Of a DNA stretch of 64,000 nt, positions 16,291-42,032 are shown in pieces; positions within the stretch are counted from its first letter, which is position 1, and every line of letters starts with the position of its first letter. A model generated the notes under the pieces. The model saw only the letters and a program-made list of their open reading frames with translations, was not told where the DNA came from and ran no database searches. Position numbers and translations under genes: made by a program. The DNA is from Hydractinia symbiolongicarpus. Lineage: Eukaryota > Cnidaria > Hydrozoa > Anthoathecata > Hydractiniidae. The stretch spans positions 31,375,501-31,439,500 of the forward strand of contig NC_079875.1 of the NCBI RefSeq assembly GCF_029227915.1, given 5' to 3'.

Positions 16291-16970
16291 ACAAAACGTT
16301 TAACGTGTTCTTTACCATTAACAAAGTTATATCGACATTTTTATTAATTTAGAATCCGGGAAGACCTATCAAGAGAGTGGTGTAAGTTTTTTTGACAATT
16401 TTTTTCCCTTTAACTCGGCTGGATCCACCGGCTTGGCAAGTAAATTTAATTTATAAGTTTTGTCTTTGCTTTATACATCCACCTTAGGTCTAAGCGTTTA
16501 TAAAATCTATGAAGTCTTATCCTTTATTATTTAGCGCACACCGTTATGGTTCAGTAGGTGCCTGGATGGACGAGAGGATCGGGTTCATACATAGGAGAAT
16601 CGTGCTAAGGTATATTTACATTAACTATGGATCTATGACTCATATACTTTTATTAACATGGACATAAGGTTGGTCTTTAGACCAGCTATAATCAATCAAA
16701 ACTTTTAATTCATCAAGGTTCAGAAGGTAATTAACATATCAGTGACAAAGTACGTAAGCACTCACTTTACGCAGACTAAGAATGTTTTGTTACTTCATAG
16801 AAATCGATTTTTCTACTCTGTATAAACTTTATCCTATGTATTAGAAAGAAACTGTATTAATAGTTTATCGTGTATAACACTTAACGATATTTCGAACGAC
16901 AGTCAATTTAAACAAAGCAAACGCGGTCCTTAATATTGCTTAATATTTAAAATTCCTTTTACATTGGCGA

Positions 16971-19245: not shown

Positions 19246-19749
19246 CTTGCACCTACAACAACCAGGCCTATTATATGTCATCTTTGAGTTGTAGATTTGT
19301 CACTTTCATTTATAGAGCCCAAAAGTGCTTTGTTTTTTGTAATAGATCTATCACTTTATGGTAAAAAGTTTTGTGTTGACATACCTGGTAGGCACAAGAA
19401 ACTAAAAAAGACGTTTTTTAAATTTTTTTGCCTTTCTCGTGGACTTCTCTGATTATTTCCATATCTTGACTTTTTAATGTTGTTGTCATTGGAATCAAGT
19501 TAATCTCAGGTTTATCAAAAAATCATATGTCGTTATGACCGATTGTTTAAATACTTGTAATGGCACATAATTCTGCTAACATGATTCACTGTATATTGAC
19601 CTGAGATAAATTTGAGACTTTTTTTGAGATATTGAATTTGAAATATTTGCACCTCAATACTTTCTATACTCCTGGACTAATATGATACTTATCTTAGATA
19701 TATTGAGTATACACAATCTTTGAGTTGTAAGGTGGATATTTTCTATTAA

Positions 19750-20005
19750 AGTCATGCACCCCTGCCTTGCCGTTCCATTTCCTTGCCAGCACTGACCGTG
19801 CCTTTCTTTGCCTACCCTTCCTATGCCTTTTCTGGTGCCTGCCTACTATGTCCTTGCCTGTGCCTCCCATGCCTGTGCCTACCATGCCTTACCCACCCCT
19901 GCCTTCCTGATTCCTTTTCCTGTTTCCTTGCCTGCCTTTGCCCTTTCCTTGCCGTGCTTAATGCCTTTGCCTTGGCAACCTCTCCGCAACTCTTTCTATA
20001 TTGAT
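19750..20005 (+). repeat. C/T-rich minisatellite ('tgcctg...ccttgcc'), copy A
   Basis: About 255 bases of pyrimidine-rich sequence built on 'ttgcctgtgcctcccatgcct' and 'tcctggtgcctgcctactatg'. It ends 'tgccttggcaacctctccgcaac'. The same words and the same ending occur at 40800-41165, so the two belong to one dispersed family. The overlapping open frames here are low-complexity by-products. Confidence 0.8.
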
Positions 20006-22216
20006 TGTCGCTGTGACGTGTGAACGCGCAGAATACGTCGTGTTTTGTGATTAAAGTGAACTTTCGGATTTACATACGATAGCAAAACAAAAAAACATTA
20101 CATCTTGACTCACCGCATTGTCAACTTAATGTGATTTCGCGCCGCGACAATATCTTTCTGGTTGTGAACATTTCTTCTACTATTTCTTGCAACTTTGCCC
20201 ACTACCTTACATGACGTAATAAAATTCTCTTAGGCGAAGTTTATTACTATGATTGGAAAGCATATTATATACTTGGTTTCATTTATTTATATACATTCAT
20301 ATTTTTTTTTTTTTTATATACTTTACCTGGACACAATCATAACAGCTTTTATTTGACATGTAAAAATATTCGCTTAATAAAAAGTAAAAATAAAAAGGAA
20401 TTTTTTTTATGTTGAGCTCGTAAGGTACTCGCTTGTTAATTTTAAAGAAGTATACATCATTCTTTATTCCAATAAATCAAGATGATAATTACGAAATACA
20501 TTTGAATTTGTCATGGTACCAACTTATTGTAATTGACGACGTACTTTTCAATTAATTCCAAGAAACATTGAACAGAGTAACATTATCTTTTTTATAAATT
20601 TCTTTTTTTTTATATTTACAGATTGGCCAAGTTAATACTAAAACTGCGACCGACATTGACCATAGAATTGCTAACAGCTAAGCCGATTGCTAATTTCTGT
20701 GCGACGAAAACTAATCATTGCCGCCCACTACGTATGGTGGAAGTTTGATGATTCGTTTAGTCAGTATTTACAAAAATAATACTTTCCACAAATTTAACTT
20801 GACTGTACAAAAAAAATGTTTATCACAATACGTTTTGGAAATAATCAAGATTTGTAGGTTTTCAAGAAAAGTTCATAAAATAAAGCCATCGATTGTTATA
20901 CTACATTACAAACTGGTACATTTTACAATTTAGAATGACTGACTGAGAGATAAGGGACCAGTTCAGCCTTACTACAATTCCTGCAAATAAATATGTAGTA
21001 TCCAATGTGATGTTTGATATATTACGTTGTCATCCTAATACAACCTTTATAACTTGTTCTCACGAAACAAGAATACAATCATCAACTTGTTCTGCAATAC
21101 CTATATGCAGATATAGTATTTGCTGACATTCGTTTTTAATTACGTTTCACACATCACCTTGGAAATATATATATATAAAGCATATCATATAAATATACTT
21201 TCATTTCCAAATCTGGGTCTATAGCTAACAGATGCTACTGAAACTTGACAGCCTTGTTATATTGGAAAGCAAGTTGTACTGACCGAAAATTGTGATCCGA
21301 ACAATGGTTTTGTTAATGCATCCCTATACTATTTCTTCTGTTTTTATCTTTATAATAATATACTAACAACTTATATTTTTAGGTACCGTATCAGTAGCCA
21401 AAAAAGCAAATTTGTTGGTAAAAACAAAGCTAAATACGGTTGCTGTCTATACCGTGCATACCGAAAAGAAACGGATATTATCTATTGCTACCTACTTACA
21501 GAAAAACTGTCTTAAAATTTCAAGGTAATTTTTTGTAAAATCTGTAAAATAGAAATTAATGTCATAATAAAAGTAAGTAGTTTAAATTAAATCAAATACC
21601 ACATTTATTACCAATTCATGTTCTGTTTAGGTCAAACAATGAATCACATAACCTGGGCGATCGATCAAAAAACTATTGGACCGGCTTTGGCTTACGTGAT
21701 ATTGTCAAGGGTGTGAAGCGCCACAGACGTTCAATTTGCTACAGCTACTAACAAATACTATTATTACCACGATAATAAGTATGTTAGACGTCTTTTCTTC
21801 CCATACCACTCCCTTCAATGACTGTACAGCATTCTTATTACACTTCAAGTTACTCGCCTGGCTAACATAGCACAGTTACGACGAATTTAAAGAATGTATA
21901 AGTCTCCATAACATTTTAAAAAAATCTTACCAAATTACTTATTATTCTTTAAAATAAAACAAAATCACGTACTTTATCAAAATCACTTACTGTAAAATAC
22001 TGTACAAAACTGGTAAGTTGGGTAATTTCTACTTTTTTATCTTTTAGTATATATACTTTATTTTAAGTTTCAAATCATCCAGTCAATGCATAGTAGTTTT
22101 AACTTTTCTGTTCTCTATGTTTTACTGTGTAAATCATGAAATCAATTCCTATGGGCAATTTATTACCTGCGTAACTAAAATTGATCTTTCTTTAGGTTCC
22201 TTGACAATAAAACGAG
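20006..22216. other. No gene seen
   Basis: AT-rich sequence with short chance ORFs only (for example 20718-20933, no motif). I see no repeat or splice pattern I can support. Confidence 0.4.
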
Positions 22217-25589: not shown

Positions 25590-26344
25590 TTTTTGCGGAG
25601 AGAAGCGGAGGGCGCGTCAGCGCCCGGAGCGTAGCGGAGCCCATTTCCTCATTAAATAAGCCAAATATAAGGGACGGAGGAGAGTGTATAGGATTTCCGC
25701 CCCCACTATACATCAAAATCATTGAATTTTCGTGCCACTTTTTTTTTGGACTGGGTTGCCCAGTACTTTAATCCGGTCATTCTCTTATATAATTGCTAAA
25801 TTAAGCGAGACAAGGTGTTTTTTTATTGACACAACGAGGGAGTGCTTTTGTTTATTTAAAGATGGCCTAGCGTAATTTGTATATTGTATATATATATAAG
25901 GTCATTTTCAAGAAACGAAGAAAGGGTATGTTTAGCTAGCTAGTATATCACTATTTTTTTTTTACATGTAATGAACCCCTTCTTAGCCTTAGATAGGATA
26001 TAGTGTATAGCTAGCTAACTTTAAAAGAGTAATAGCTAGCTAGCATAAAAAGAGCAACAAGTGCCTTTATATAGCTAGCAAAAAGACTAGCATAAAATTA
26101 ACCACTTAGCTGGGATAAAACTACCAATATAGCTATACATGTACTACACAATAATTATATTTTGTCCCATCACATAGCTTGTTTCTAGCTACAATTGTGC
26201 ACAAAATTGTTGGCCCTGACAATTTTATATATCAAAAACCAAAAAGTTTAGATAGATAGATAGATATAGATAGATAGATGTGCATATTTTACATGACTAG
26301 CCTCACAAATATCGAGGGATATACCCTGTCTATTATTTCCAGGA

Positions 26345-26614
26345 GGGGCCATGGCTTGATGGAGAGTCCTAGAGTATTTAATGCTCATTTTGAGCTACGC
26401 AGACCCAATTAGGGCCCGCGCTCTACTAGACAACTCCCGGCAACATCCAACGGCCCACACAGTGTGCCATCTTCCCAATTTCCCTCACATGGCTTGGGTT
26501 AACCCGGGGGTATGGTAACATTCACTCGCCCATGTTGAATCGCCGTCAAGAGGAATCGAACCCCGGTCTCCCGCACAGAGTACGAGAGCTATAACCACTA
26601 ATCTATGGCGCGAC
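26345..26614 (-). mobile_element. tRNA-derived SINE, minus strand
   Basis: Read on the minus strand, this begins at about 26614 with a tRNA-like head: TGTCGCGCCATAGATTAGTGG, then GGGGTTCGATTCC as a perfect B box. The A box is one base off consensus. The body ends near 26345 in 'ccatggcccct'. The head-body organisation and the length of about 270 bases fit a SINE. I could not identify the body with a named conserved domain, nor a convincing target duplication. It lies inside copy B of the long dispersed repeat, so it is younger than that copy. Confidence 0.65.
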
Positions 26615-27305
26615 ATTACTATTTTAGAAAAGTCAGCAACACAAAATTTGTTGGCTCTGACAGTTTTATATATGAAAAACCAAGAACCAAAAAGTTTAGA
26701 AAAGTCAGCAAAAAAACATAGCTAGCTATAGTCACATATTCTGCAAATAGTACGTTCGGTCCCCACTGATGATCAATGTTTATGTAAAGGTATGTCACGT
26801 GTAATCGTTTACGTTGGTCAGCCACAAAGGGCAGTAGTTTTCAACATTGAGGGGGAATGGAAAGCCATATTTTTGTGGACGATTGTAGCTATATTGTACA
26901 CAGGTCAGGAAATAAATTTTTTTAACCCTGCCAGTGAGCATACACCAGTACGGCTCAAGTTACAGAAACGGAAATTATTGCAATATAAATATATATATCG
27001 GGAAACTTTTTGAACATGTATATACATTTGTTATTTGTTTGAGACGTTTTAAATTCTGATGCTTACATCCAACACCTGCATTTTTTATTACCAGGGCAAA
27101 TTCTGACGAACGGTTATCATGCAATCGTCAACACCTATAGCTATACTGAAAATATTTAAATATATGTATATATGGATTTGACGATATTGGTTGTTAATAA
27201 CTCTAACAATATTAACAGTCAAGGTACAGAAGAAAGCTTAGTAAGTTTCTGAGTATAATGTGAAACTGTTAAAATTCTGTATGCCATGTATATATTATGT
27301 ATTAT

Positions 27306-27377
27306 GCCCTGTTGGTCTAATGGCTATGACACTCATTTATGGAAATGGGAGATCTGGGTTCGAATCCTGGACAGGGC
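27306..27377 (+). ncRNA. tRNA-like Pol III unit, copy B
   Basis: 72 nt with A box TGGTCTAATGG and B box GGTTCGAATCC, both perfect. The acceptor stem pairs over 7 bases (GCCCTGT/ACAGGGC), better than in copy A. The anticodon stem (CTCAT/ATGGG) leaves an 8-base loop, one too many, so a working tRNA is unlikely. Flanking sequence is shared with copy A. Confidence 0.65.
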
Positions 27378-27390
27378 TAGGAAAAACATA

Positions 27391-27952
27391 ACTATAATGC
27401 ACGCCTTGGTAATCCGTAATTAAGCTTGCTTTTTCTATTGTTGTCTTATCAGGGAAGTTGTTTACTGTATTTTCTATTAAATTATACTATTTGATACATG
27501 TAATGAACAACTTTTTAGCCTTTAGCTAGCTACCTAGCTAATGCAAAGCCATGTAAAAAGATCATCACTAGCTACCTAACTAAAGCTAGTGAACATATAG
27601 CTGGCTAGTATAAAAGTAGCTGGAAAAAAAGAATTGTTCTTGACAGGCTCATATCTTTTGACTACACATATTATATTCAGTCGGGTAATTTTGCCCTGAT
27701 TAGGAATATCTATAGGATTAAAACTGGCTAGCTAGTATAGTATCCTAAATGAAACCGACCCTTCTTTGACCCACCGGTAGGTAAACGGACACCGGATACC
27801 ATGTTTATTTACATCTTAGCACTTTCTGATTGGTTAGATTATAAACAAAAAGTAATGTCATTGGCCCGTGATATATTTTTTCAACATATTTATATGCGAT
27901 ATATTGCGTCCGGAACAAACTGCGAATTTGCTAATGCAGACGCAGGTAACTA
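27391..27952. other. No gene seen
   Basis: AT-rich sequence with 'tagctagc' clusters, which also occur near 17580 and 26000. No coding or structured feature supported. Confidence 0.4.
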
Positions 27953-28010
27953 CATTCTCGACCCCAGAGCTCTTTGAGATAAATTTGAAAGGGCTCTGGG
28001 GACGAGAATG
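27953..28010. mobile_element. 58-bp MITE with 9-bp target duplication
   Basis: Terminal inverted repeats of about 23 bases start CATTCTCGaCCCCAGAGC and end with the complement, GCTCTGGGGaCGAGAATG, with two mismatches and a 12-base centre. The flanking 9-mer 'aggtaacta' is present on both sides (27944-27952 and 28011-28019), a perfect direct repeat. A 9-bp duplication fits a Mutator-like (MULE) transposase better than hAT (8 bp). The element is almost entirely TIR. Confidence 0.85.
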
Positions 28011-28632
28011 AGGTAACTATAGTTTTTCCAAAAACAAACATTTTTTCCATTGATTTATTGGACAAAATGGAACACGTAGATTTTTCCAAACACAAAAATT
28101 CTTCGCTTTGATTGGATAAAGTAGAACACGTGGTTTAAGCGATGGAAATATACTTTTCTGGCGCCACTTTTTTCAAACCCTCTGGAAATTTACCGGAGTG
28201 TGTTGTGTTTGTTTGCTGGAACGAAATTGATACTTCCTGGATTATTGGATAAGTATTATTTCATAATTTTGTCCGTCTCTTTTGTGTTAGTAAACAAAAC
28301 ACATTTAGCTAGGTGTAAACTGCAGCTTGGTGCATCTTTATATCTGATTTTTGTCCCCAGCTGTGTCCTTGCATTTTGGCTATTATATACCTGGCTAGAT
28401 AGCTATTAATCGTAGAAATTGTAGCTTACTGTTTAAATCTTATTTTTTGTTCCCTGCTCCTGTATTTTGATTCAAGGACTACATTGCCACAGTCACCAAA
28501 GTAAGAAGATATACGTTTATGTTTATATCTGATTTAGGTGCTAACTGCAGCTAGGAAGCAACCGTAGCATCATAAAATTGTGTCACATTGTAGCTAATTG
28601 TAGCATCGTAGAATAATCAAGACAAATTAATC
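28011..28632. other. Region upstream of the Helitron gene
   Basis: Contains two similar stretches in tandem (around 28040-28080 and 28095-28135: 'ttgattggataaagtagaacacgtgg' and a variant). Near the gene come the words 'gtagcatcataaaat' and 'gtagcatcgtagaat'. The element's 5' terminus should lie here or further left, but I could not find a decisive TC-type start. No promoter could be assigned. Confidence 0.4.
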
Positions 28633-31600
28633 ATGATATCTGTCCAAGCATATCGTGCCACCATTGGTTCTTTTTATAATGTAGCTGCTAGTTGCTCCAA
28701 TAACATTAGGAATGAAACAACAAATTTTTACAGCCGTTCTGAAATGTTTTTTGACCAGATCGATGGTAACAACAACTTCATTCATTTCTTGAAACTTTTT
28801 ATTTCAATAATTTTCATGTGTTGTCTGAGCTGTAATATAAATCTTGCGTCTTTGAAATTACTGTTACTGTTATCTGGCGATATTGAAAGCAATCCTGGGC
28901 CTTTTAATAACAATGATATCGACTTCCAAATAGCACTACAGGATTCCTATGCTACGCATCTTCTTAATCAGTCAACTTCTGCTGATCAAATAGTCGCTTA
29001 CGCTAGAAGTATTGGTTTGTCAAATATAACATATCGAGAAGTGACCAAAGGGGATGGCAACTGCTTTTATAGAGCAGTAGTACAGCAACTTAATCGCCCT
29101 GAGATCAGACAAATTGTGCCCCTTGGACTACATTTCCAGAATCATCTTCAACTACGAGCAGCTGTGGTCAAATTTGTTCGAGAAAATAGTAATCTAGAAA
29201 TTTTTCAAAATAACAGAATCTTTTTAACCATAAAGCCGGAAGAGTGGGAACGCGACATACAAACTCAGTCAAGACCTACTGTTGATGTTGAAGAGATTTT
29301 CATACGGGCTACTGCAATAATTTTGGGCGTAAACATTTTGATAACAGCCGATACCAGTACTGCAACACGCCCATATACCCTCATTAGTCCTACTCATGAC
29401 GAAACACATGATATTCCTGGTGAACAACAAGTGGCACATCTATTGACTGATGGTACCACTGCAGGTGCTTTCATTTTGCTTGGCAGGGTTAATCAAAATC
29501 ACTATCAATCGTTGATCTTTGATGATAATGTGAGCGTTACTCCTGTTACATCATCCACATCACTCAGTCCACCTAAAAAAATTCCTTGTTTGTCATCAAA
29601 ATATCCTGAAAATATAACTAATGAAAAACCTGGTGAAAAGGAAGTTACTACTTTGAATCAAAATCAAGACCTCCTAGTAGAGAAAATAATGAAATCTTAT
29701 ATGTCTGCTGCTATAATACCAAAAAAAGTTAAGCCTAAACATAAGCCTAAATCCAAGCCTAAACCCAAACCTACACCTAAACCTACAACCAAACCTACAA
29801 CCAAGCGTAAACGCAAGCCAAATTATAATAAAGAACCTGCTTTAAAGCTAAAGTGTCTTCAGTTAAATATTAAATATGAAGAACCTAAAGTTAATGAAAC
29901 AAGTATGGAAACATTCAACAGACACAGGCGAATAATTTATAGCTGCAAAAAAAACATTTCTAAAACAGCCGTAAGTAATCAGGAAAATGGTAGTTTGAAA
30001 AAACCGCCTGCCTCCAAACATACATATTCCCTGCCACACCTTACACTTCCAATTACTACACACAATCTAGTAAATATTTTACCAACCACTCAGTCCATAC
30101 AAACCACACAGTCAGTTCCGACAATTGTCACAGACAACCAGACCAGTGATCAAATTTATGGAAATGAAACCTCCTCTATTCATCAAAATCCTGATGTTGT
30201 TGCAGCTGTAATACAGTTCGAAGAAGGTGAGAAGTTGCATAGTTTGGCAACCTGTAAAACTTGTCGTGAAACCCGACCAGTATTTCATGCTACTCCCCCT
30301 ATCAGTCCTACTGCAGAAAACGAAACAAAACCAATTGCCGTTAAGCCTTGGAAAATTTTCAGCGATGGAAGGTGTGACAGGTGTCATCGGGAAAGCCTTA
30401 GTCGTTTTAAAAAGAATGTAACAACACCTGCTAGATTTTCCGGTATACTGTCAGTTGATGATGATGATTTGGGCCCATTACACGATAACATCCGCCATAA
30501 TGATATGCATTTTTTACCGGTACCACCATATCTTCAAAATTTGACCATACTGGAAGTAGCATTGATTCGTCGTATCACTGTTATCATGAATATACACCTC
30601 CTGCGATATGGCATGCTTGCATCAAAAGGACATTGTATCAGTTTTCCTCAGAGAATGCAAATTGCTAAAGAATTGCCATCGTTACCATCTCAGGTTGGAA
30701 TAGTGGTTATTAAAAAGAAAGGAAGTCGAAATTCAGTTCAACAGTATACTGTGCAAAGGGGTAAAGTTGAAAATGCATTACGAGGGCTGTGTTTTGGATA
30801 CCCAGAAGGTGGCACTGAATATCCAGATACTAATAGTGAACATCTATACAATGGCTCTGATCACATTGACAAACCTTTAAAAGGACGCTACTTTCAGTTC
30901 CTACCGAATGAGTACTATAAGGATGTTTCGATAAAATATGACCGCATTCAAAATTTACCAGAGATGCGTTCTGAATTACCTGGCTTGCCTGTTGTTGAAA
31001 TGCCACATATTATACCAGAGGAAGACAAGGGTCCTGCTGAAAATCAATTTCTGGAAAACTTACCTCAAGATGACGAAAGTATAACCCGTTCTGGTTTAGT
31101 TTGTCCACTTGAATCTAAAGATGCTGACAAAGAGTTGCGAACAATACTGCAGAAGCTCTTGGGCTCTGAAGATGCAGTTAATCAAGCTCTTGAACATGGC
31201 ACAATTGCGAATGCAAATTTGGAATATACACGAGAGCAGCCTATTCGAGAATTAAAAACTCCTGGTTTTTTTACTATGGCATACCCAACTGTTTTTATTA
31301 ATGGAAATTGTGACTTAACGGTTCCAAGGTTGAGTAAAATTAACTTTGAAGAATACATCGAACATATATATTATTGTTCTGATAATCGTGTAGCGCGTCA
31401 TCCATACTTAAAATTTTTCTTATTGAATATGCGTTTACGAATGCAAGCACTACAGCAGGGTAGCTTTCTTGTTTCCCAACAATTAAATGATGCGCATCTC
31501 ACAATTGCTGAACTGAGAGATAATTTACAAAATGACGATGATTCAGTTCCACGAAAAATTATTAGTATTGGAAAAAACCTGGTGAATACCGATCCATACT

Positions 31601-34600
31601 GGAGAGACCAAAAAAAAAAAGTGGATGCTCTGTTGTTTTTCAGACGAAATGAGTTTGGCGATTTACCGGCCTATTTTGATACCAACAGTTGTGCAGAATT
31701 TCATTGGAAACCATTACATGAATTACTTATTAAGTATCATGCCTTAATAAACAATTTAAACGAAGATACTGTGCGGCAACAAATGGAAAACGACAGCAAA
31801 TTCAAGCGGGAAATGATTCTACAAAATCTTCATATCGTCACACAGTATTTTGATGCAAGGACTATAAATTACTTTGCCACAGTCAACAAGAAAGTGTTTC
31901 AATATAATGATAGTTGGTGGCGATATGAATTCGCTAAAGGTCGAGGTGAGATACATGGTCACGCAATTATATCGTCCTCTAAACACGCTCAAAAGGTCAA
32001 AACAATCATGGATGGATTGTCGAATGATGTACCTGACTCACAAGCATCCCAAACTGCTGCACAAGAACTTCAAAATTGGTTGCAAACCACAAATGAAGAC
32101 AGTGATGACATTTTTTCACCCATATTTACTTCACTGCATCCTGCTGGGGGAAATGAAATTATAGATACCTCTGGAATTAGAACTTGGGTTCCAAACAAAA
32201 ATCAATGGCCAACACCAGAAGGGAGTCAAGCTCCTCCAGACCATAACCCATTGGCGCAAGAACTTGCAGATGTCGCTAACCATGAAGGTGGTATAAGAGA
32301 GCAACATACTTATCTTGTTAATAGAATAGGTCTCCATAATTGTAATTCCAGTTGTTTGCGTTATCGTCGTAAGAATAATAAGGAAAAGGATACCGCTCCA
32401 AAAAAGTACTGTCGTTTTCATTTTGGTGATCTTGATCCACAAACCAAAAAAACAAGTGGCAAAGAGATTCATCCTTTTCATGCTGTCATAACAAAAGGGG
32501 AACATCCTAGATATGAGGGACCACGCGATCATCCTCGCCTAATGATGCATGTTAAAACACGTCTGCTTAGTTGGCTAGCAAATTGTGACAGTCAAGTCAT
32601 TATCGATCAGGATCTTCTGGCTCTTCAAAAATACATTGCTGGTTATGCTTGCAAGGGGGCAGCCTCAACTGAAGATTTGGTACATGTTTATCGGCATCTC
32701 ATTGAAAACACTGCTGATGGAAGCACTGTTAAAAATTTGGCTCAACGACTACTTCAAAAAATTGCTGGTCTGGTAGATGTACCAGGTGCTGCGGCAGATT
32801 TTATTAATAGTGGTGGCCGTTTGACTAGATGTACCAGGAATTTTCGATACATTGGTATCAGTGGCTTCCGAGCATTGGATACGTCTGGTGAAGATGGAAC
32901 CGTTACAAAGAATAGCACATTGGATAAATACTTGAGCGATAAGCGTAGAGAAACTGAGCCAGAAATATCATTATGGAACTGGAGCAAGAAATGTAATTGT
33001 ACCTGCAAAGTAGATCACGTGCCAGTTTTTACAGGAATATCTACAAAACCTGTTTGGCCTGTTACTGAGGACTATGCAAAAGCTATGCTCGTTATATTTT
33101 CTGTTGGAACGTGGCATAATACTGAAGAATTGAAGGGACAACATGAGTCATTTGCTGCTGCTTTGGCTTCCTTTGTTCAAACTGAAAACTGTCCCCCTAT
33201 ATTAATAGATGCATTGAAGGAGGCTAAACAATCATTCGATAAAAAGAGTGAGAGAAAACAAAGTCACACTCGTGTAATCAATAATGAAACCGATAATCAG
33301 TCTTCATGTCAATCATCACAATATACAGATGCAAGTTCTCAAAGTTCCCAAAATTCAGTCATTGCACAAATGAACATAGGCAGAGCGATAATGAGAGATA
33401 TTGCAAGGCATCACGTTGCTGATATCAATGAGCCGGATGTACAACAAGTTCTTCCCAATGGAGGGCCTACATTTGATTGGAATAATTATGCAATTCAAAG
33501 TTTTGGTAGTCAATGGCCAATTAATGCTGACACATGGTTACAATCTATATCTGAAGAAGCAGAAAGAAATGAATTGCATCTGGCTGATGATTGTACCTTA
33601 CCCCAAATAAACATCTTAAATGCTAATGAATTACAGAGAACAGTCATTGGTATAAATCTTCAGCATTTATTGCAAGTTGCAAAAGGAACTTTGCCAACAG
33701 GTACCCAGCCATTACGTTTATTAATACAAGGAACAGCTGGTGTTGGGAAAACATTCATCATTACTGCGCTCACCAGAATCGTTCGGCGTATTTTTAAGCG
33801 AAATTCTGCTGTTATGAACTTGGCCCCAACTGGTGCAGCATCAGTCCTCATACCTAATGGTCGCACTATACATTCAATGACTCCACCACCACACAAACTG
33901 AAAAAAGATAAGAATTTAAATTCTGTCCAGCTTTCTGACTATCCGTTGGGTGATGTATCTCTAAGAAAGCTGAGAAAGTATACAGGTATGCATGAAAACA
34001 ATGAGCTGAAATTATTTCAACTTAATATTGATGAACGTAGCATGCAGTCGAAGCTTCTTGTGGCCTGGTGCAGCCAAAGATTATGCGAGGCTACGGGAGA
34101 CTTTGATAATTATTATGGTGGTGTACCAGCTGTCAATTTCTTTGGTGACCTTGGTCAGCTTGGACCAATTCGTGCTTTGGATCTACATCAGCCACCAAAA
34201 CACGATGATTCGACAATCAACTTTGCTGGCTATGCAATCTATCGCTCGTTTCAAGATGTTATTGTTCTTACAGAAACAATGCGTCAAGGCCCAGATCAGT
34301 TAGCTCTTTTGCAGCGACTTCTTAGAATACGTAATGGATCGATCACTCAACAAGACTGGCAAGATATAAATAGTCGTTACGAAGATGGTTTGCCACAAAC
34401 CGAAAAATGTAACTTTTCGCATGGTCGCGTCCTTACATTGATGGAAACATGGAATGAAGTTAATGAGGAAAATCACAATAAATTAGCTAGCCTCGGTGTG
34501 CCTGTTGCTGTAATTCCATCAAGAGGCAGTGGTAAACACCACTCTTTGACTGATAAGCAACTGGGTCAAATACCGCTGAGATCTTTAATGGCAGTTGGTG

Positions 34601-35274
34601 CAACTGTAATACTCACTAAGAACCAAAAAGGTCTTACGGGCCTCGGTCTTAATAATGGTGCGATGGGAAAAGTAATTGCAATCCTTTATTCGCCAAATAT
34701 GTCACCACCTGAATTTCCTATAGCTGTCATTGTCGATTTCCCAAATTATAAAGGCCCAATATGGATTCCAGAACATCCAACATGGATACCAATTACTGCT
34801 GTTGAAGGTCGATGTGAATCTAATTGTTGCAGCAGAAATGGCCTGCCATTGATGCCAGGATATGCGATAACAATTGCTAAAAGTCAGGGTATGTCGATTG
34901 GAGATGGTAAAACTGCCACCCACATGCGTATCAAGTTACAACAATCAATTCAGATGGAAAAAAATAACCTTGGTACAGCTTACACTGCATTTTCAAGATG
35001 CGAAAAAGAAAGGAATTGGGCACTTGTCGAGCCAATTACTCAAGAACGTCTCTTGTACGTTAATACACATCCTCGTATGAAAGCCAGACAAGAGGAAGAG
35101 CAACGACTGAAAGCATTATCGAATGAAACCATCAAAAAATTTGATATCACTATAGTAAAGTATATTAACTTGCTGAAAGACCTTGACGAGTTTTGCGATG
35201 ATGATATTGAAGATGCAGTTTGTCCTTCACCATCTGCAGATTGCTCATGTATTATATGCACATCTCAATCATAA
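28633..35274 (+). CDS. Helitron Rep-helicase with OTU protease domain and N-terminal 2A peptide
   Basis: Intact 2213-codon transposase of a rolling-circle element; the HUH nuclease nicks and joins single strands and the PIF1-like helicase unwinds. Order: leader with hydrophobic stretch (about 49-80); 2A motif DIESNPGP (83-90); OTU cysteine protease with GDGNCFYRA (D141, C144) and H290; Lys/Pro-rich linker with KRKRKP (391-396); C-x2-C pairs CKTC and CDRC (about 540-585); a DUF6570-like block; Helitron_like_N; HUH motif IHGHAI (H1108, H1110); paired tyrosines Y1334 and Y1338 with K1341 in KYIAGYACKG; Walker A GTAGVGKT (1700-1707); Walker B FFGDLGQL (1836-1843); AITIAKSQG near 2080; YTAFSR (2117-2122). 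Stop TAA at 35272. Every key residue expected is present and there is no frameshift, so it may be active. Start chosen as the first ATG in frame, 89 codons before the 2A proline. Confidence 0.95.
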   Translation: MISVQAYRATIGSFYNVAASCSNNIRNETTNFYSRSEMFFDQIDGNNNFIHFLKLFISIIFMCCLSCNINLASLKLLLLLSGDIESNPGPFNNNDIDFQIALQDSYATHLLNQSTSADQIVAYARSIGLSNITYREVTKGDGNCFYRAVVQQLNRPEIRQIVPLGLHFQNHLQLRAAVVKFVRENSNLEIFQNNRIFLTIKPEEWERDIQTQSRPTVDVEEIFIRATAIILGVNILITADTSTATRPYTLISPTHDETHDIPGEQQVAHLLTDGTTAGAFILLGRVNQNHYQSLIFDDNVSVTPVTSSTSLSPPKKIPCLSSKYPENITNEKPGEKEVTTLNQNQDLLVEKIMKSYMSAAIIPKKVKPKHKPKSKPKPKPTPKPTTKPTTKRKRKPNYNKEPALKLKCLQLNIKYEEPKVNETSMETFNRHRRIIYSCKKNISKTAVSNQENGSLKKPPASKHTYSLPHLTLPITTHNLVNILPTTQSIQTTQSVPTIVTDNQTSDQIYGNETSSIHQNPDVVAAVIQFEEGEKLHSLATCKTCRETRPVFHATPPISPTAENETKPIAVKPWKIFSDGRCDRCHRESLSRFKKNVTTPARFSGILSVDDDDLGPLHDNIRHNDMHFLPVPPYLQNLTILEVALIRRITVIMNIHLLRYGMLASKGHCISFPQRMQIAKELPSLPSQVGIVVIKKKGSRNSVQQYTVQRGKVENALRGLCFGYPEGGTEYPDTNSEHLYNGSDHIDKPLKGRYFQFLPNEYYKDVSIKYDRIQNLPEMRSELPGLPVVEMPHIIPEEDKGPAENQFLENLPQDDESITRSGLVCPLESKDADKELRTILQKLLGSEDAVNQALEHGTIANANLEYTREQPIRELKTPGFFTMAYPTVFINGNCDLTVPRLSKINFEEYIEHIYYCSDNRVARHPYLKFFLLNMRLRMQALQQGSFLVSQQLNDAHLTIAELRDNLQNDDDSVPRKIISIGKNLVNTDPYWRDQKKKVDALLFFRRNEFGDLPAYFDTNSCAEFHWKPLHELLIKYHALINNLNEDTVRQQMENDSKFKREMILQNLHIVTQYFDARTINYFATVNKKVFQYNDSWWRYEFAKGRGEIHGHAIISSSKHAQKVKTIMDGLSNDVPDSQASQTAAQELQNWLQTTNEDSDDIFSPIFTSLHPAGGNEIIDTSGIRTWVPNKNQWPTPEGSQAPPDHNPLAQELADVANHEGGIREQHTYLVNRIGLHNCNSSCLRYRRKNNKEKDTAPKKYCRFHFGDLDPQTKKTSGKEIHPFHAVITKGEHPRYEGPRDHPRLMMHVKTRLLSWLANCDSQVIIDQDLLALQKYIAGYACKGAASTEDLVHVYRHLIENTADGSTVKNLAQRLLQKIAGLVDVPGAAADFINSGGRLTRCTRNFRYIGISGFRALDTSGEDGTVTKNSTLDKYLSDKRRETEPEISLWNWSKKCNCTCKVDHVPVFTGISTKPVWPVTEDYAKAMLVIFSVGTWHNTEELKGQHESFAAALASFVQTENCPPILIDALKEAKQSFDKKSERKQSHTRVINNETDNQSSCQSSQYTDASSQSSQNSVIAQMNIGRAIMRDIARHHVADINEPDVQQVLPNGGPTFDWNNYAIQSFGSQWPINADTWLQSISEEAERNELHLADDCTLPQINILNANELQRTVIGINLQHLLQVAKGTLPTGTQPLRLLIQGTAGVGKTFIITALTRIVRRIFKRNSAVMNLAPTGAASVLIPNGRTIHSMTPPPHKLKKDKNLNSVQLSDYPLGDVSLRKLRKYTGMHENNELKLFQLNIDERSMQSKLLVAWCSQRLCEATGDFDNYYGGVPAVNFFGDLGQLGPIRALDLHQPPKHDDSTINFAGYAIYRSFQDVIVLTETMRQGPDQLALLQRLLRIRNGSITQQDWQDINSRYEDGLPQTEKCNFSHGRVLTLMETWNEVNEENHNKLASLGVPVAVIPSRGSGKHHSLTDKQLGQIPLRSLMAVGATVILTKNQKGLTGLGLNNGAMGKVIAILYSPNMSPPEFPIAVIVDFPNYKGPIWIPEHPTWIPITAVEGRCESNCCSRNGLPLMPGYAITIAKSQGMSIGDGKTATHMRIKLQQSIQMEKNNLGTAYTAFSRCEKERNWALVEPITQERLLYVNTHPRMKARQEEEQRLKALSNETIKKFDITIVKYINLLKDLDEFCDDDIEDAVCPSPSADCSCIICTSQS
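28879..28902 (+). other. 2A-like ribosome-skipping motif
   Basis: Codes for DIESNPGP (residues 83-90), preceded by LKLLLLLSG. This exactly fits the D(V/I)ExNPG|P consensus at which the ribosome releases the upstream peptide at Gly and resumes at Pro. If it works, a separate 89-residue hydrophobic leader is made, and the Rep-helicase begins at Pro90. 2A sequences are known from RNA viruses and from some non-LTR retrotransposons, where they also sit near the N-terminus. Here the host gene is a Helitron. Confidence 0.85.
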
Positions 35275-35403
35275 TGATAATCACAACTGAAATTAACCTA
35301 TGTTGCAGATAATATACATTAAAAAACATTGTATATGTTCATATATTTGTTGTGAAATCAATATGCGAAGTAAAATTTTGATTTAGAAAATAAACAAAAT
35401 AAA

Positions 35404-35935
35404 AACCGTCTGACCATGAATTCGTAATTATTGGATGTAATAAGCCGAAGTCAAATACTTGATTTAATATCAATGTATAGTAAGCTGTATCCAAGAATCA
35501 TGGTAAACATTTTTAATTCAACAGACAGAATAGTTGTTTCTCAAAACAACCGTCTGCCCATGAATTCGTAATTATTGGATGTAATAAGCCGAAGTCAAAT
35601 ACTTGATTATAATATCAATGTATAGTAAGCTGTATCCAAGAATCATGGTAAACATTTTTAGTTCGACAGACAGAATAGTTGTTTCTCAAAACAACCGTCT
35701 GCCCATGAATTCGTAATTATTGGATGTAATAAGCCGAAGTCAAACACTTGATCTAATATCAATGTGTAGTAAGCTGTATCCAAGAATCATGGTAAACATT
35801 TTTAGTTCAACAGACAGAATAGTTGTTTCTCAAAACAACCGTCTGCCCATGAATTCGTAATTATTGGATGTAATAAGCCGAAGTCAGATACTTGATTTAA
35901 TATCAATGTATAGTAAGCTGTATCCAAGAATCATG
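35404..35935 (+). repeat. 146-bp tandem repeat downstream of the Helitron gene, 3.7 units
   Basis: The word 'accgtctgcccatgaattcg' recurs near 35404, 35550, 35696 and 35838, and 'taagctgtatccaagaatcatgg' recurs between. Units are about 97% alike by eye. Each unit junction contains a partial palindrome, 'cagacagaatagttgtttct' facing 'caaaacaaccgtctg'. They start 130 bases after the stop codon and are probably the 3' non-coding part of the Helitron. Just beyond, at about 35960-35976, lies a small hairpin (TGCCT-aacatc-AGGCA), but no CTRR end follows. Confidence 0.85.
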
Positions 35936-35979
35936 GTTAAAATAAAGTAAAAATACTCTGCCTAACATCAGGCATCACG

Positions 35980-38431
35980 ATGTGTGATTATTATCAACAA
36001 ACTCAATTTAAAGGCAAATTAATCCTCGTTTTTTGTAAGAAGCCTAAGCATTTGTGTGCACTCAAAGTTTATTAAAGTTTTGATAATCAAATTTAAATTG
36101 TCCTTATTTAACACTGAAAAATCTTTTATTTACAAGGCTTTTTGTCTAAAATGCATGCTCATTAACACATACCAAGTCTTAAGTTACTGAAGGCCCTAAT
36201 ATAATCAAGTTTGTAACCTGACTTTTGGGTTGATTTACCTTCTTGTCTTTTTTCCTTCTAAGAATGTAAAACAAAAGGTTTTTAACATTAAGCTAAGTCA
36301 ATTTAAAAGTGGGTCACTTCTTGGTTTCCTCCCCTTTTTTTGTAAAATTTTATGTGTTAATAAAAGCATACAGTGTATGACATTCTAAAAATTTAGTTAC
36401 ATATATTGCGTATGTATATATACTTAAAATTATGCCAGGGGTTCATATAACTTAATTTATGGAAACGTTACTGAGAGAAAGCGTTTAAGCCAAAAAAGAA
36501 ATGTTTTTTTGCATAAAATGAAATTTAACATTGTGATTGACTTTACTAAGTTTCAAGTTTTACTAAGTTAACACAAAAATTAGATTTGAACTTTTTGTGT
36601 TTATTTTGCAAAAGTTTTTACAAATTAAGTATGATCCATCATTGAGTATGGTAACTATTGAAACCAATGTCAGTAAATCCTGAAATGTAAAATCTGACAC
36701 TTTAATGTTCCTCAAAATGAGTATATTATGAAAAGATTTTATTATATGATAATTTTTAACTGGCCATGATGATACTTAAGATATCACACAGTCTTGATTT
36801 TAAACCACGAAGGAAAAAAATTAAAAATTATGTGAGGACATTAAAGAGATATATCGGTGAGGATAGGTCCGGTTGTAAGGGGATGGAGGAGACCGGCAAT
36901 TAATACCTTATAAAAAGGAATTGAATTTGCACTAAATATGTGAAAGTTAATGTATTTTGTAATTTGAATGATACTGTACAGTTTCAGTTCCTTTGTTGCT
37001 CTCTTTTGTCTTTTTCCTGTTTTCAGGTACTATAATAAACTTTCAAGGAATTTGTAGAAGACGTTAGCAAGTTTTTTCAAATTCTACTGGAAGATATAAC
37101 ATGGCAGTTATTTTAAATGAAAAACAATCAGATAAGTACCTCTTATTAATTAATTTTATATTTAAATGTGTACTATACATAAAGGCGAGACCATTTTCAT
37201 TGTGTAATGTAATTTTTAAGTTATTTTAACAATTTTGAAACCACACCCTTTTTAAATTTCCTTCTGTATAAAATTTGACATGATTATGTCATTGTACCAC
37301 CAGTAAAATCTTTGCTAATTTTTCACATCAGTATTTTTCATGACTACTCTGTCACAGTTAGTTTGGACAGCCAAATGATCATGTCATTTGATTTTTTGAC
37401 TGCTTAATTCATAATGCAGTTACTTTAGTACGAAAATTAACATTCTAGTTGTAAATCATTTAGGAAATTTCTTTACATTAACAATGGCAATTGATCACAT
37501 ATGAGAAAAAAGTAGAGGATGAGACATACTAGAGGATTTATTTGGTAAGCATATACTTTACAAGCTTTTTTCTGAAATCGTAGCATTAAGGGTGGGGAGT
37601 GGTAGAGCCTTAGTTCTAGCCTGTGTTTGGAAATTTGATTGTTCTAACTTTATTTTTAAGAGTTACACAATTTTCTAATCATCATAATCCTCAAATAATT
37701 CCCCTTGTTTATATCAGTTATTAGTATAGTATCTTACTGTTATAGGACCCCTCATAGTTGCTAGTGACAACAAGGTTGCAAAGTGAGAAAAATGATTAGA
37801 AGTTTACCAGTATTGCAGTTAATAGACAGATTGAACTTGTTTGTTAGGTCTACTTTTATACGGTAGCAGTAACGTCACGTAGAATTCAAATCAAGATTTT
37901 AAATTACCTGTGAAGCTACTTACGTTAAACGTCTTCTGGATACGTATGGCCGTATATAGTAGGCGAGATATGTTGCTACATTTACTTGTTATATAAAACC
38001 ATTTGGCACTGAATATTTCCTTTGATATTGTTTTGTTCCATAGCATAGATTATTTGTGAGTTTAGTCAGTAAATTTTAGCTACCACAAGGGAATTAATTT
38101 AGCAAGCTTTTGTCCATTTGGCGAAAATTCATTTTTTTCTTGGTATTTTTGGGAAAAATTAATAATAAATATATATATTAGTATACATATAGAAAATTGT
38201 TCTGAAGTATTTCATTATATCGTCTGCACCAGACAGTTAGGGACCGTTCACATATTACGTAATAAATTTTTTATAAATATCCAAATAAATATCCAAATAA
38301 ATATGTACAAAATTGACTACTGTATTTTTTTGTCACTATGTAGCACCTTGTAGATTTTTTGACCATTCTTTAATTTTATTATTAAACATTCATAAATAAT
38401 AAGATTCTTTCTAAGCATCCGAAAATATATA
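35980..38431. other. No gene seen; possible 5' intron or intergenic DNA
   Basis: About 2.4 kb of AT-rich sequence without long ORFs. A polypyrimidine tract and AG at about 37025 ('tttttcctgttttcag') could be a splice acceptor of a non-coding leader exon of the gene at 39037, but no donor could be paired with it. Confidence 0.35.
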
Positions 38432-38960
38432 CAGTACACTCCCGATAACTCGAACGCCCAATAACTCGAACTTCCAGTAACTTGAACTGTTTTTGAATTC
38501 CCGTTGAACCTTCACTAATACTTTCTCACAAAAATCACTCGATAACTCGAACCCCCGATAACTCGAACATTTGTTAAGTCGAACCTGGACAGAAATTCCC
38601 CCGATAACTCGAACTTCAGAGGAAAAATGAAAACAATCTCGGTAAAAAGTGACTACTTTTCTTTCAATAATATAAATTGTTCTTCCAAAGTTGACAAAAA
38701 CCTTTTTCTCCTGTATTTTAATTGACAGAGAGAGACGTTACCGCTACAGTGAAACAGAGTCACATTAGAACTTTTTTCAGTGATGTATAACTATGACTGT
38801 ATTCTTGTTAGAATAGAAAAGAAAAAAAAATTTTAATAACTCGAACTATTTTCACTTATCGGCCAAAGTTCGAGTTATCGAATGCCCCGGTAAGTCGAAC
38901 ATTCGATAACTCGAACTATTTTTTTGGTCCCTTGAGGTTCGAGTTATCGGGAGTGTACTG
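38432..38960. mobile_element. Pogo/Tigger-like MITE with TA target site
   Basis: Left end CAGTACACTCCCGATAACTCG and right end with the exact complement (CGAGTTATCGGGAGTGTACTG). It is flanked by TA on both sides (38430-38431 and 38961-38962). The words 'cgataactcgaac' are repeated five or more times behind the left end and, inverted, behind the right end. CAGT starts, TA duplication and CGATAACTCGAA sub-repeats are typical of the Tc1-mariner superfamily, pogo branch. The 529-base interior is non-coding. Confidence 0.9.
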
Positions 38961-39036
38961 TACTGATAATCTAGAAATAATTTGTGATGTTTTACAACTG
39001 ATTTATTTGTGTTTTTTAGCAAATATAGAGAAAAAA

Positions 39037-39618
39037 ATGGCGGCACAAATTAACTTAGAACTTGGTAAGTATATTATTGATTTTGTTACTATTAGTGGTA
39101 TTAATAAATAAAAAAATTATACCTGTTATTATATATTATACCGTTTTTTATAGTTTCACTTTATGCTAAATTCGTGGAGCACAGGATACAACATCCTGGC
39201 TCCATGAATTATCGGTCGTTTGGCCGATGGCTAAAGCAGGGTGGGGTCGAGTGGACCAATGAAGAAGACCCCACCGAAACAGCTCCCAACATGGAATTGA
39301 GTAAGAAATCACTTTTCATGTATTCAAAATTTTGTTAGGATCTAAAACTTTGGTATACCTTAGGTATTATCTATGTTACTTATTGTATTAACCTTTACAT
39401 TATTTTTTCTTTAAGTGCAAGTATGGACAAAATTTTTACAGTACAGACTTAGACATAGCGGGTCAATGGACCTAGAAGTGTTTGGACGTTGGGTGCATAA
39501 TGGCGGGGTTGAGTTTTGTGGTGGGCGACGGGATCGTGGTAGAAGTAGCAGTCGTGGTTGGAGACGCGGTCGTGGTGGGAGACGCGGTCGTGGTGGGCCG
39601 TATAAGCCACAATATTAA
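39037..39618 (+). CDS. Three-exon gene: duplicated 33-residue motif plus RGG tail, unknown function
   Basis: Exons 39037-39064, 39154-39300 and 39416-39618, each intron with GTAAG at the donor and a pyrimidine-rich AG acceptor; the joined frame is 125 codons. Residues 13-43 (YAKFVEHRIQHPGSM...FGRWLKQGGVEW) and 62-92 (WTKFLQYRLRHSGSM...FGRWVHNGGVEF) are clearly two copies of one motif. They share KF, R-x-H-x-GSM, FGRW and GGVE. The C-terminus (94-125) is an Arg/Gly box (RGRGGRRGRGG) ending PYKPQY, typical of RNA-binding proteins. Exon 2 is phase 1-1, so it could be duplicated without frame damage, and both repeats are preceded by N-[LM]-EL. The ATG follows 'aaatatagagaaaaa' after an AG at 39018-39019, so a leader exon upstream is likely. 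I do not recognise the motif. Sequence around it is transposon-rich, so it could itself be element-borne. Confidence 0.7.
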
Positions 39619-40049
39619 AATGTATTTTTATTACTAACCCTTTGTAAAACGAGGTGCACTTTTTTTTAATAAAATATCCTAAATTTAAAATGGGCCTAAA
39701 TATTGCCAAAATTCAAACAATTGCTAAACTATTTTTCAGGCTGAATTTAAAATAAATACTTTGAAAAAAACAACATTTTTTCCATTGAAAAAAATAAATA
39801 CTTTGAAAAAAACAACATTTTTTCCATTGAAATTAACTAGATAAACAAATATTTTGTCTACCTTGTTTTACGAAGGGTTAGATGTTATTAAATTTGTTAA
39901 TTATCTTAACTCTATATTGAAGAATTTTTTTATTCCCTTGATAGATTCAAAATTTTAATGTCAACTGATGGACACCATCATAAATTAAGCTATTCCAAAA
40001 CGAATATCAAATGAGATATATTTTTATCCACCTTGTTGCGACGGGTAAA
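39619..40049. other. 3' flank of the three-exon gene, with a short tandem duplication
   Basis: AT-rich. A 42-base unit ('aataaatactttgaaaaaaa' plus 'caacattttttccattga') occurs twice at about 39750 and 39792. An AATAAA-like signal, TTTAATAAAAT, lies at about 39666, within 60 bases of the stop codon. Confidence 0.5.
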
Positions 40050-40790
40050 CGTAAAGGACGGGCGATCCCGTGGATTTTTACACGGGCAGGCGTCGTCTGT
40101 CTGTTCGTGCCTCTGTTTGTCTTTTTGTTACGGAAATGTGATATATAAAGGATGGGCGACCCCTTGTTTTTTCAAAGGGCTACCAACTAGTCTCTATAAT
40201 AATAGCCGTCGTCTGGCTGTGTGTTCAAAAGGGTTACCGCGTCCTGTTACGGAAACACGAAATGTGATATATAAAGGACGGGCGACCCCGTGGATTTCTC
40301 CACGGGTTAACGACTAGTCTCTTTAATAATAGCCGTATTTTGTCGGTCTGTCCGCGAGGAATACGTCGTGTTACGGAAACACGAAATGAGTTACATAAAG
40401 GACGGACGACTCCGTGGAATCTTCCACGAGTAACCGACTATCTCTTTAATAATAGCCGTCGTCTGTCTGTGTGTCCGCGAAAGCCGCGTCCTGTTACGGA
40501 AACACGAAATGCGATATATAAAGGACGGGCGACCCCGTGGATTTTTCCACGGGTTAACGACTAGTCTCTATTATAATAGCCGTATTTTGTCTGTGTGTTC
40601 AAAAGGGTGACCGCGTCCCGTAACGGAAACACGAAATGTGATATATAAAGGACGGGCGACCCCGTGGATTTTTCCACGGGCTAACGACTAGTCTCTTTTT
40701 AATAATAGCAGTATTCTGTCTGTCTCTACGCAAGATGGTAACCACAGTAGCATGACATGAAATGCAGTATATAGCTAAAGGACGGGTAAA
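40050..40790 (+). repeat. Head-to-tail array of mini-Helitron units
   Basis: Complete units 40191-40317, 40318-40440, 40441-40564 and 40565-40691 (123-127 bases), with a partial unit on each side. Each begins TCTCT(A/T)TAATAATAGCCGT and ends in a perfect hairpin (CCCGTGGA-TTT-TCCACGGG) followed 8-9 bases later by CTAG. The next unit's TC follows directly. Thus each unit has both Helitron ends, and the array joins 3' end to 5' start without spacer DNA. One unit (ending 40440) has lost the final G of CTAG. The hairpin and terminal words are related to the small Helitrons at 2326 and 11084. Peptides in the array are by-products. Confidence 0.85.
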
Positions 40791-40799
40791 CTAATTGCC

Positions 40800-41165
40800 T
40801 ACCCTTTTCATGCCTTTTCTTATGCTGTTGCCTGTGCCTCCCATGCCTTGCTTACCCCTGCCTTGCTGTTTCCTATTCCAGTTTCCCTGCCTGCCTTTGT
40901 CGTGTCTTTGAATTGCCGTCCTTCCTATGTCTTTCCTGGTGCCTGCCTACTATGCCCTTGCCTGTGCCTTCCATGCCTTGCCTACCCCTGCCATGCTGAT
41001 TCCTTGCCATCCTTCCTATGCCTTTCCTGGTGCCTGCCTACTATGCCGTTGCCTGTGCCTTCCATGTCTTGCCTACCCCCCTGCCTTGCCGATTCCCTGC
41101 CTGCCTTAGGCCGTGCCCTTTCCTTGCCGTGCTTAATGCCTTTGCCTTGGCAACCTCTCCGCAAC
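40800..41165 (+). repeat. C/T-rich minisatellite, copy B
   Basis: Built on a unit of about 92 bases ('cctggtgcctgcctactatg' near 40938 and 41029). It ends 'tgccttggcaacctctccgcaac' exactly like the array at 19750-20005. It follows the mini-Helitron array directly. The three overlapping open frames are low-complexity by-products rich in Pro, Leu, Cys and Ala. Confidence 0.8.
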
Positions 41166-42032
41166 ACTTTCTATACTGGTTTCAGCTATTTTTGCGGGAA
41201 AGTCAATTTTTGAAAGATATGTTACAGTCGCAACACTATAATGGTGTGTGCGCTGCACTTGATTTACGAGATACTTTATACCTGTACTAAAGCGCTCCAC
41301 CTGAACGTGTCGCACAGTTCACGGCTCTTTTTAAGGGCTCCTTGACTTGTGGCTTACTTGACTTGTGGCTGTTTTATTTTAAGTCTCGCCTGGAGGTAAT
41401 TTGTTGAAATAATAATTATAAACTCTGTTCAAACATACAATACAAAAAGATTCTGTGCATATTTTGTCATCATCCGTCTATAATACACTTCACTATTTCT
41501 CATAAGTACTAAGTATAAAAGAATTCCATAGGTTAATTTTACTATTGTTTGTGGAATAGCTGATACTATGCATGCTGAAAGTGACAACAAAGCTTCTCAC
41601 AAGGAGTTGTAATTTTTGATGCACTACAGTTGTGACACCTATCTGATATATTTTTTTGTATGTTTTTTTAGAATATAATCAAGAAGAGAGCAAATAACTA
41701 ATATTTTGAAGCAATGTGAACAAATAATTAGGTTCAAATTTGATAACATACATTAAAAATGGCGTAAAAATATAGTTGTAGTGAAATCTAGCAAAAATAG
41801 AAGATCTGATGTATTGTTCTAAATAGACAGTCATAAAAAAGAGAGATGGTCTGGACACTGCAGCAAGCGCGCTCTGCTCCTCGTACCAAGGTCGTGTTCC
41901 GGGATTTTTTCGTACCCAGTCTATTTTAGAGTGCACGAAATAAAACTTTTCAGCGGAAAATTTCAACATTTGTTTGTTGACATTACATCATTAATGTGCT
42001 ATAATTTAAACGTTGAGATTAAATGTAATGCT
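41166..42032. other. Dispersed repeat fragment, then no recognisable feature
   Basis: 41215-41330 ('gatttacgagatactttata', 'gcgctccacctgaacgtgtc') matches words near 18960 and 47350, a dispersed repeat. The rest is AT-rich without supported features. Confidence 0.4.

Follow-up and report, generated by a model that had tools for sequence, protein, structure and literature searches.

A predicted 2A (StopGo) sequence between a conserved leader and the deubiquitinase of Helitron proteins in Hydractinia

An intact Helitron in the window, the whole 64-kb stretch of DNA from the hydroid Hydractinia symbiolongicarpus analyzed here, probably carries a working 2A (StopGo) sequence at the head of its protein, by which an 89-residue leader would be released and a deubiquitinase–Rep–helicase made separately; some Helitrons of this genome with a herpes-tegument-like (VTD) protease have the same layout. 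The open reading frame (ORF) encodes an OTU protease, Rep, and a PIF1 helicase without an internal stop, and the nearest upstream in-frame stop lies at 28609 (feature coordinates are collected in Table 1). Residues 76–90 read LLLLLSGDIESNPGP, a full 2A motif (LLLLLSGDIESNPG/P). A preliminary description had placed the start of an intact Helitron ORF at 28633, with an 89-residue leader and an exact fit to the 2A consensus D(V/I)ExNPG/P at residues 76–90, and all of this was borne out. Its further proposal, that the 2A parts a small leader from an OTU-Rep-helicase, is supported at the level of sequence by retention among copies, constraint, an LLLLSG-like context, and recurrence with another protease. 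The core, DIESNPGP, conforms to the StopGo core (D/G/C/N)(V/I)ExNPGP, and the residues ahead of it (LLLLSG, with D at p12 and S at p15) agree with upstream contexts given in the available sections of a 2026 StopGo study (PMC12846837). According to those sections, published tests have found StopGo to be supported by LLLLSG-like contexts in which p12 is D and p15 is S, and in vitro activity was seen for one member of the related motif 6 (PMC12846837).

By chance, D(V/I)ExNPGP is expected 9e-6 times per ORF of equal composition and 5e-4 times in the window over six frames, and NPGP occurs once in the six frames of the 64 kb, i.e., only at the end of the leader. Across the genome searched (481 Mb, 76 contigs), a degenerate DNA pattern for G-D-[VI]-E-x-N-P-G-P gave at least 221 exact matches, a lower bound because the pattern left out GTG valine codons, and with them families L045/L047 and L070/L072/L073; the reversed pattern, used as a control, gave 0. 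A chance motif was ruled out on these numbers (~1e-5 expected in the ORF; 221 genomic sites versus 0). Between residues 62 and 353 the protein has no methionine, and Met353 lies beyond the OTU domain. An OTU protease free of the leader could thus not arise from a later AUG in the ORF, and a start downstream of the 2A within the ORF was likewise ruled out.

Table 1. Features of the Helitron and of its leader–2A head in the window.
Feature	Position	Strand	Remarks
Whole rolling-circle element, ~15.6 kb	25590..41181	+	Ends accurate to a few bases (T-rich target)
5' terminus, TTTTTGCGGAGAG...	25590..25670	+	Contains TTGCGGAGAG, inverted near the 3' end as CTCTCCGCAA
Short upstream ORF, 11 codons	28519..28554	+	Sole one within 400 nt 5' of the start codon; terminates ahead of 28633
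Helitron protein ORF, 2213 aa	28633..35274	+	
89-aa leader, predicted first product ending ...ESNPG	28633..28899	+	
Leader motif MISVQAYRATIGSFYN, pattern [QE]AY-R-x-x-[IM]-G-x-FY	28633..28680	+	Common to VTD-type Helitrons
Hydrophobic segment FIHFLKLFISIIFMCCLSCNINL (aa 49–71)	28777..28845	+	Includes the protein's most hydrophobic 19-residue stretch
2A sequence ASLKLLLLLSGDIESNPG/P (aa 72–90)	28846..28902	+	Predicted skip G89/P90 = 28899/28900
OTU-type cysteine protease	29047..29532	+	Pfam match aa 139–244; D141, C144, H290 proposed catalytic, from motif
DUF6570	30499..30792	+	aa 623–720, Pfam
Rep HUH motif H1108-G-H1110	31954..31962	+	Both His invariant across 10-protein alignment
Rep two-tyrosine motif Y1334-x3-Y1338-x2-K1341	32632..32655	+	All three residues invariant across 10 proteins
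PIF1-like helicase	33715..34344	+	aa 1695–1904; Pfam PIF1 E 5e-11
144-bp tandem repeat, 3.7 copies	35404..35937	+	Immediately 3' of ORF
3' terminus, ...CTCTCCGCAACACTTTCTATACTGGTT	41092..41181	+	

The window protein unites the Rep HUH and two-tyrosine residues with a PIF1 helicase in one polypeptide, as a Helitron protein does. Pfam reported no Helitron_like_N for it and lists that domain for its nearest database protein, P0001 (H. symbiolongicarpus LOC130648690); P0001 is identical in sequence to the translation of copy L009 from the window's own genome and therefore gives no independent support from another species. For residues 90–356 OTU scored above the Pfam cut-off, and the fold together with the Cys and His residues places the domain among OTU deubiquitinases, the structure being predicted with low confidence (pLDDT 52.5; top Foldseek match OTUD3, E 0.004).

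Multiple copies with fixed ends and differing flanks also mark the element as a Helitron. At the 5' end (~25590) identity ceases and flanks differ among five copies (window, L022, L026, L027, and L028), and at the 3' end (~41181) flanks diverge in two (window and L024). These ends were not detectable from hairpins or repeats inside the window and were found by comparing other copies; they share a 10-bp inverted match (TTGCGGAGAG and CTCTCCGCAA). Canonical Helitron1 elements begin with 5' TC and end with 3' CTRR, and the window element has TTTTTGCGG... and ...ACTGGTT instead. Helentrons are defined by a C-terminal AP endonuclease and Helitron2 elements by asymmetric inverted ends; a Pfam scan of the window protein found no endonuclease domain. 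Eight copies are 99.9% identical across the 9.6 kb compared, and eight places in the genome match residues 1–2213 without an internal stop, indicating that the family is young. The long 3' part of the element holds a second tandem array (40133–40723, 127 bp × 4.7), and a strong imperfect hairpin (27946–28017; 35-nt arms, 80% complementary) lies 5' of the ORF. From base 1410 of L024 on, the 5' end of a related Helitron abuts the 3' end of one copy, head-to-tail. Elsewhere in the window, a shorter element at 16970–20007 is a probable non-autonomous relative: it shares the 5' end (98% over 82 bp), and its 3' end is similar. Other window features are a 524-aa ORF at 6669–8243 with no Pfam match, a reverse-transcriptase fragment (RVT_1) at 503–1957 on the minus strand, and a segment (1–1243) that recurs beside copy L002 at 99.6% identity.

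All 21 fetched copies, which come from this one genome and fall by our own grouping into five subfamilies, read D(I/V)ESNPGP, including L011 and L013, whose leaders are frame-broken yet keep the motif. Searching the genome with residues 1–321 gave 126 match rows; where 2A matches were listed (contigs C1–C5 and the first 14.12 Mb of C6), an exact 2A site is overlapped by 36 of 36 rows that are of OTU type and span residues 82–90. This count omits rows that do not span those residues, one row at C1:30627504 (41% identical, with seven stops and in overlap with a second row from that copy), and two VTD-type rows, of which C1:8796712 carries a listed motif and C5:16475640 (L070) has NPGP and encodes the valine by GTG. 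Two decayed OTU-family leaders are without a 2A: L071 breaks off ahead of it, and in L074 the 2A has decayed, with a deletion behind.

We compared five subfamily representatives open across the first 330 codons (L001, L009, L014, L016, and L038) by pooled pairwise dN/dS, a descriptive measure here because the pairs share ancestry. Values were 0.07 for the 2A (aa 72–90), 0.06 for aa 91–112, and 0.10 for aa 1–19; 0.23 for both the hydrophobic aa 51–71 and the OTU region (aa 113–300); and 0.53 and 0.89, respectively, for the leader spacer (aa 20–50) and aa 301–330. The choice of I or V at position 84 varies, as do Gly, Asp, Ser, and Pro codons, and the peptide is still a 2A. Between the most distant pair, L001 and L038, the 2A has 8 synonymous and 2 nonsynonymous differences (Fisher p=7.5e-5); constraint was also significant for the whole leader (p=2.7e-4) and OTU (p=5e-18), and no significant constraint was found in this pair for aa 1–19 (QAYR motif, p=0.20) or the spacer (p=0.15) taken alone. 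These comparisons support protein-level constraint on the putative 2A alongside change at synonymous sites. Set against L009–L021, the window ORF is a mosaic: its first ~1.1 kb is 83–88% identical to other subfamilies, and the remainder is 97–98% identical in subfamilies B and C and 90–92% in D and E, as if the leader–2A–OTU part and the RepHel part recombined separately.

One predicted leader–2A head precedes two unrelated deubiquitinases, OTU and herpes-tegument-like VTD. Locus L040 has an intact 2115-aa ORF in which a leader and 2A (NPG/P at 82/83) are followed by Herpes_teg_N (aa 95–233, E 6e-14), DUF6570, Helitron_like_N (E 6e-32), and PIF1 (E 3e-29), with a weak Exo_endo_phos match (E 0.08). 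Its leader is identical to that of the window at 34 of 91 residues (37%; E 6e-7 for that comparison), and the helicase regions are 25% identical. With the 2A removed, the leaders of L040 and L051 each resembled the window leader more closely than did 1000 of 1000 shuffles, and that of L045 was weakly similar (shuffles did as well in 27 of 1000 cases against L001 and 2 of 1000 against L038). Other VTD families bearing the leader motif are L051, L045/L047, and L070/L072/L073, the last with the leader start ITLEAYQAAIGSF[HY] and DGDVEINPGP followed by a tegument-like domain. Because the motif is common to OTU and VTD Helitrons so distant in the helicase, the leader is old.

Among the 100 matches listed of the 221, 36 belong to OTU Helitrons, assigned by overlap with OTU-family rows; 42 to VTD elements and 21 to retrotransposons, both assigned by 26-mer identity to directly read tegument- or retrotransposon-type sites; and 1 to neither. 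Directly reading 31 places, mostly picked for distinct sequence, we found by eye a tegument-like domain in 18 (badly decayed in L055, L058, L063, and L066), the OTU family in 3, and a retrotransposon zinc-finger/endonuclease in 10; none of these 31 places has a host gene behind the 2A. Pfam scans of eight loci, drawn from the places read or further loci of the same kinds, found Herpes_teg_N straight after the 2A in 5 of 5 tegument-type loci (L047 below its cut-off) and Exo_endo_phos in 2 of 3 retrotransposon-type loci, the third giving PHD only. The 2A precedes the tegument-like domain by about 10–20 residues. A Rep-helicase is in frame or directly downstream in tegument-type L040, L044, L045, L047, and L051; at the remaining tegument-type sites only the protease part was read. 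The non-LTR leaders of L030, L033, L037, and L059 have a pattern of their own (hydrophobic start, LYYxN..ATF, then 2A), and five of their six pairs outscore nearly all shuffles, marking a second, separate leader–2A type.

The 2A is not a feature of all Helitrons. Nine tegument-type N-termini comprise four with an exact 2A (L044, L045, L047, and L049), one with NPWP (L048), and four with none (L041, L042, L043, and L046), L041 representing three near-identical intact places. The OTU Helitron relatives P0004 and P0006 lack a leader, their sequences starting close to the OTU domain. The preliminary description had named relatives without the motif as grounds for rejecting its proposal; given these proteins, the trait holds for the family, as the 21 of 21 copies attest, and fails as a universal property of Helitrons. 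In VTD frames without a 2A, a Met occurs from a few to ~25 residues ahead of the protease, and we read this Met as the likely start, with an upstream exon possible. Near the start of the domain, L041, L042, and L046 have QSH or QGH, and most 2A-bearing VTD proteins have QGD. NPGP was absent from 11 further database homologues, several of them N-terminally incomplete, and a protein search with the leader only returned P0001 alone among 10 candidates. A search of viral contigs found no relatives of the window ORF or the L040 ORF, and a phage collection gave weak helicase matches only.

In the mechanism that we propose, ribosomes would skip the G89–P90 bond, releasing the leader, and translation would continue from P90 into a second, soluble protein, the OTU deubiquitinase–Rep–helicase. 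The leader, built of a QAYRxxIGxFY motif, a variable spacer, a membrane-like segment, and the 2A, would be a conserved product in its own right and may sit in a membrane, and the benefit of skipping may be a deubiquitinase or RepHel freed from it. By analogy to sea-urchin NLR proteins, a small unskipped fraction might take the secretory route. The 2A would mark where the deubiquitinase begins, irrespective of which of the two folds follows, and where the leader is missing the protein's own Met would set the start. We lean towards the view that a two-product head has evolved as the standard among this lineage's rolling-circle transposons: a 2A would release a small, independent membrane factor, and an interchangeable deubiquitinase (OTU or tegument-like) would acquire a 2A-made N-terminus.

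The leader could instead serve dual targeting as in sea-urchin NLRs, acting as a signal or anchor so that most product is cytoplasmic or nuclear and an unskipped minority is purposely sent to the membrane or secretory pathway. Such behavior was demonstrated for N-terminal 2A signal sequences, as the available text of Roulston 2016 (PMC4981915) reports, and residues 49–80 are the most hydrophobic stretch of the window protein. The hydropathy profile also qualifies the earlier characterization of the leader as hydrophobic, which is correct for residues ~49–80 and incorrect for residues 1–48. Unlike a classical signal peptide, the hydrophobic stretch begins ~50 residues in, whereas the sea-urchin leaders are only 26 residues long; LLLLSG-type 2As are efficient and hence should leave little unskipped product; and a secreted Rep-helicase has no obvious use. 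We regard purposeful dual targeting as unlikely, if the foremost of the alternatives to a two-product head.

Somewhat less probable still is a dose brake, in which ribosomes partly drop off at the 2A, RepHel is made in smaller amounts than the leader, and transposition is limited. Termination at the 2A is among the outcomes listed in the available text of Roulston 2016 (PMC4981915), but a brake of this kind leaves the constraint on the leader motif unexplained.

Helitrons capture sequence, and the leader and 2A might accordingly be a passenger, carried off with a host gene or acquired from another transposon and persisting only by hitch-hiking, the more so as non-LTR retrotransposons in the same genome likewise have N-terminal 2As. 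The low dN/dS of the 2A (0.07) and the age of a leader motif found in both OTU and VTD Helitrons argue against a passenger. When four retrotransposon leaders were compared with the window leader, scores of 19–23 were matched by at least 275 of 500 shuffles, and against the L040 leader the lowest count was 35 of 500; with similarity not above shuffles, a retrotransposon origin of the leader was ruled out for the four tested. We consider a passenger origin improbable, and a similarly small chance attaches to an inactive 2A whose conserved peptide has another role, e.g., as part of a membrane hairpin: every fetched OTU-type copy, like several VTD families, retains the L-rich context and all residues that a 2A requires, and what follows the 2A is interchangeable.

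2A recoding has been described in RNA viruses, non-LTR retrotransposons, and a few sea-urchin immune genes. A link between 2A and Helitrons was not found in the literature searched; such proteins may already be among the entries of a eukaryotic 2A survey by Rao et al. 2025 (Cell Rep 44:115822). Subject to that survey for priority, we regard the arrangement as an established recoding device placed in a class of element where it is new, alongside a leader that is conserved and a protease that can be exchanged. If the proposed mechanism is correct, DNA transposons would be a new class of 2A users, and a DNA transposon would be using viral-style polyprotein logic. Among the 100 matches listed in this genome, sites heading transposon deubiquitinases outnumber retrotransposon sites (78 versus 21). 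The arrangement joins the question of what Helitron-encoded deubiquitinases are for to that of why they stand at the N-terminus, and the shared leader is a concrete candidate for a small membrane peptide encoded by a transposon.

APE-type non-LTR retrotransposons, in which Odon reportedly described 2As in 2013, resemble the window element in that the 2A is in a mobile element, and this genome has such retrotransposons (21 of the 100 matches listed). Their leader type is unrelated to that of the window, as is the protein that follows, an endonuclease/reverse transcriptase. Among Helitrons and Helentrons, OTU domains are noted in the available sections of PMC9741609 and PMC4067079, and VTD domains in cnidarian Helitrons in those of PMC9741609. 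These elements have the same fusion of an OTU or tegument-like deubiquitinase to a Rep-helicase, and the available sections of neither paper describe a leader–2A head; the terms NPG, ribosome, and self-cleavage were not found in PMC9741609. As far as the available sections of PMC12846837 go, RNA-virus StopGo/2A sequences share with the window the core octapeptide DIESNPGP and the LLLLSG upstream context, and they divide parts of a viral polyprotein, whereas in the window the 2A stands at the head of a protein encoded by a DNA transposon. The available text of PMC4981915 describes N-terminal 2A leaders of sea-urchin NLR proteins that can serve as signal sequences if unskipped. Like the window protein, these have a hydrophobic N-terminal leader ending in a 2A, followed by a large soluble protein; the sea-urchin leader, on the same account (PMC4981915), has 26 residues and belongs to host immune genes, whereas that of the window has ~89 residues, carries an additional conserved N-terminal motif, and belongs to a transposon.
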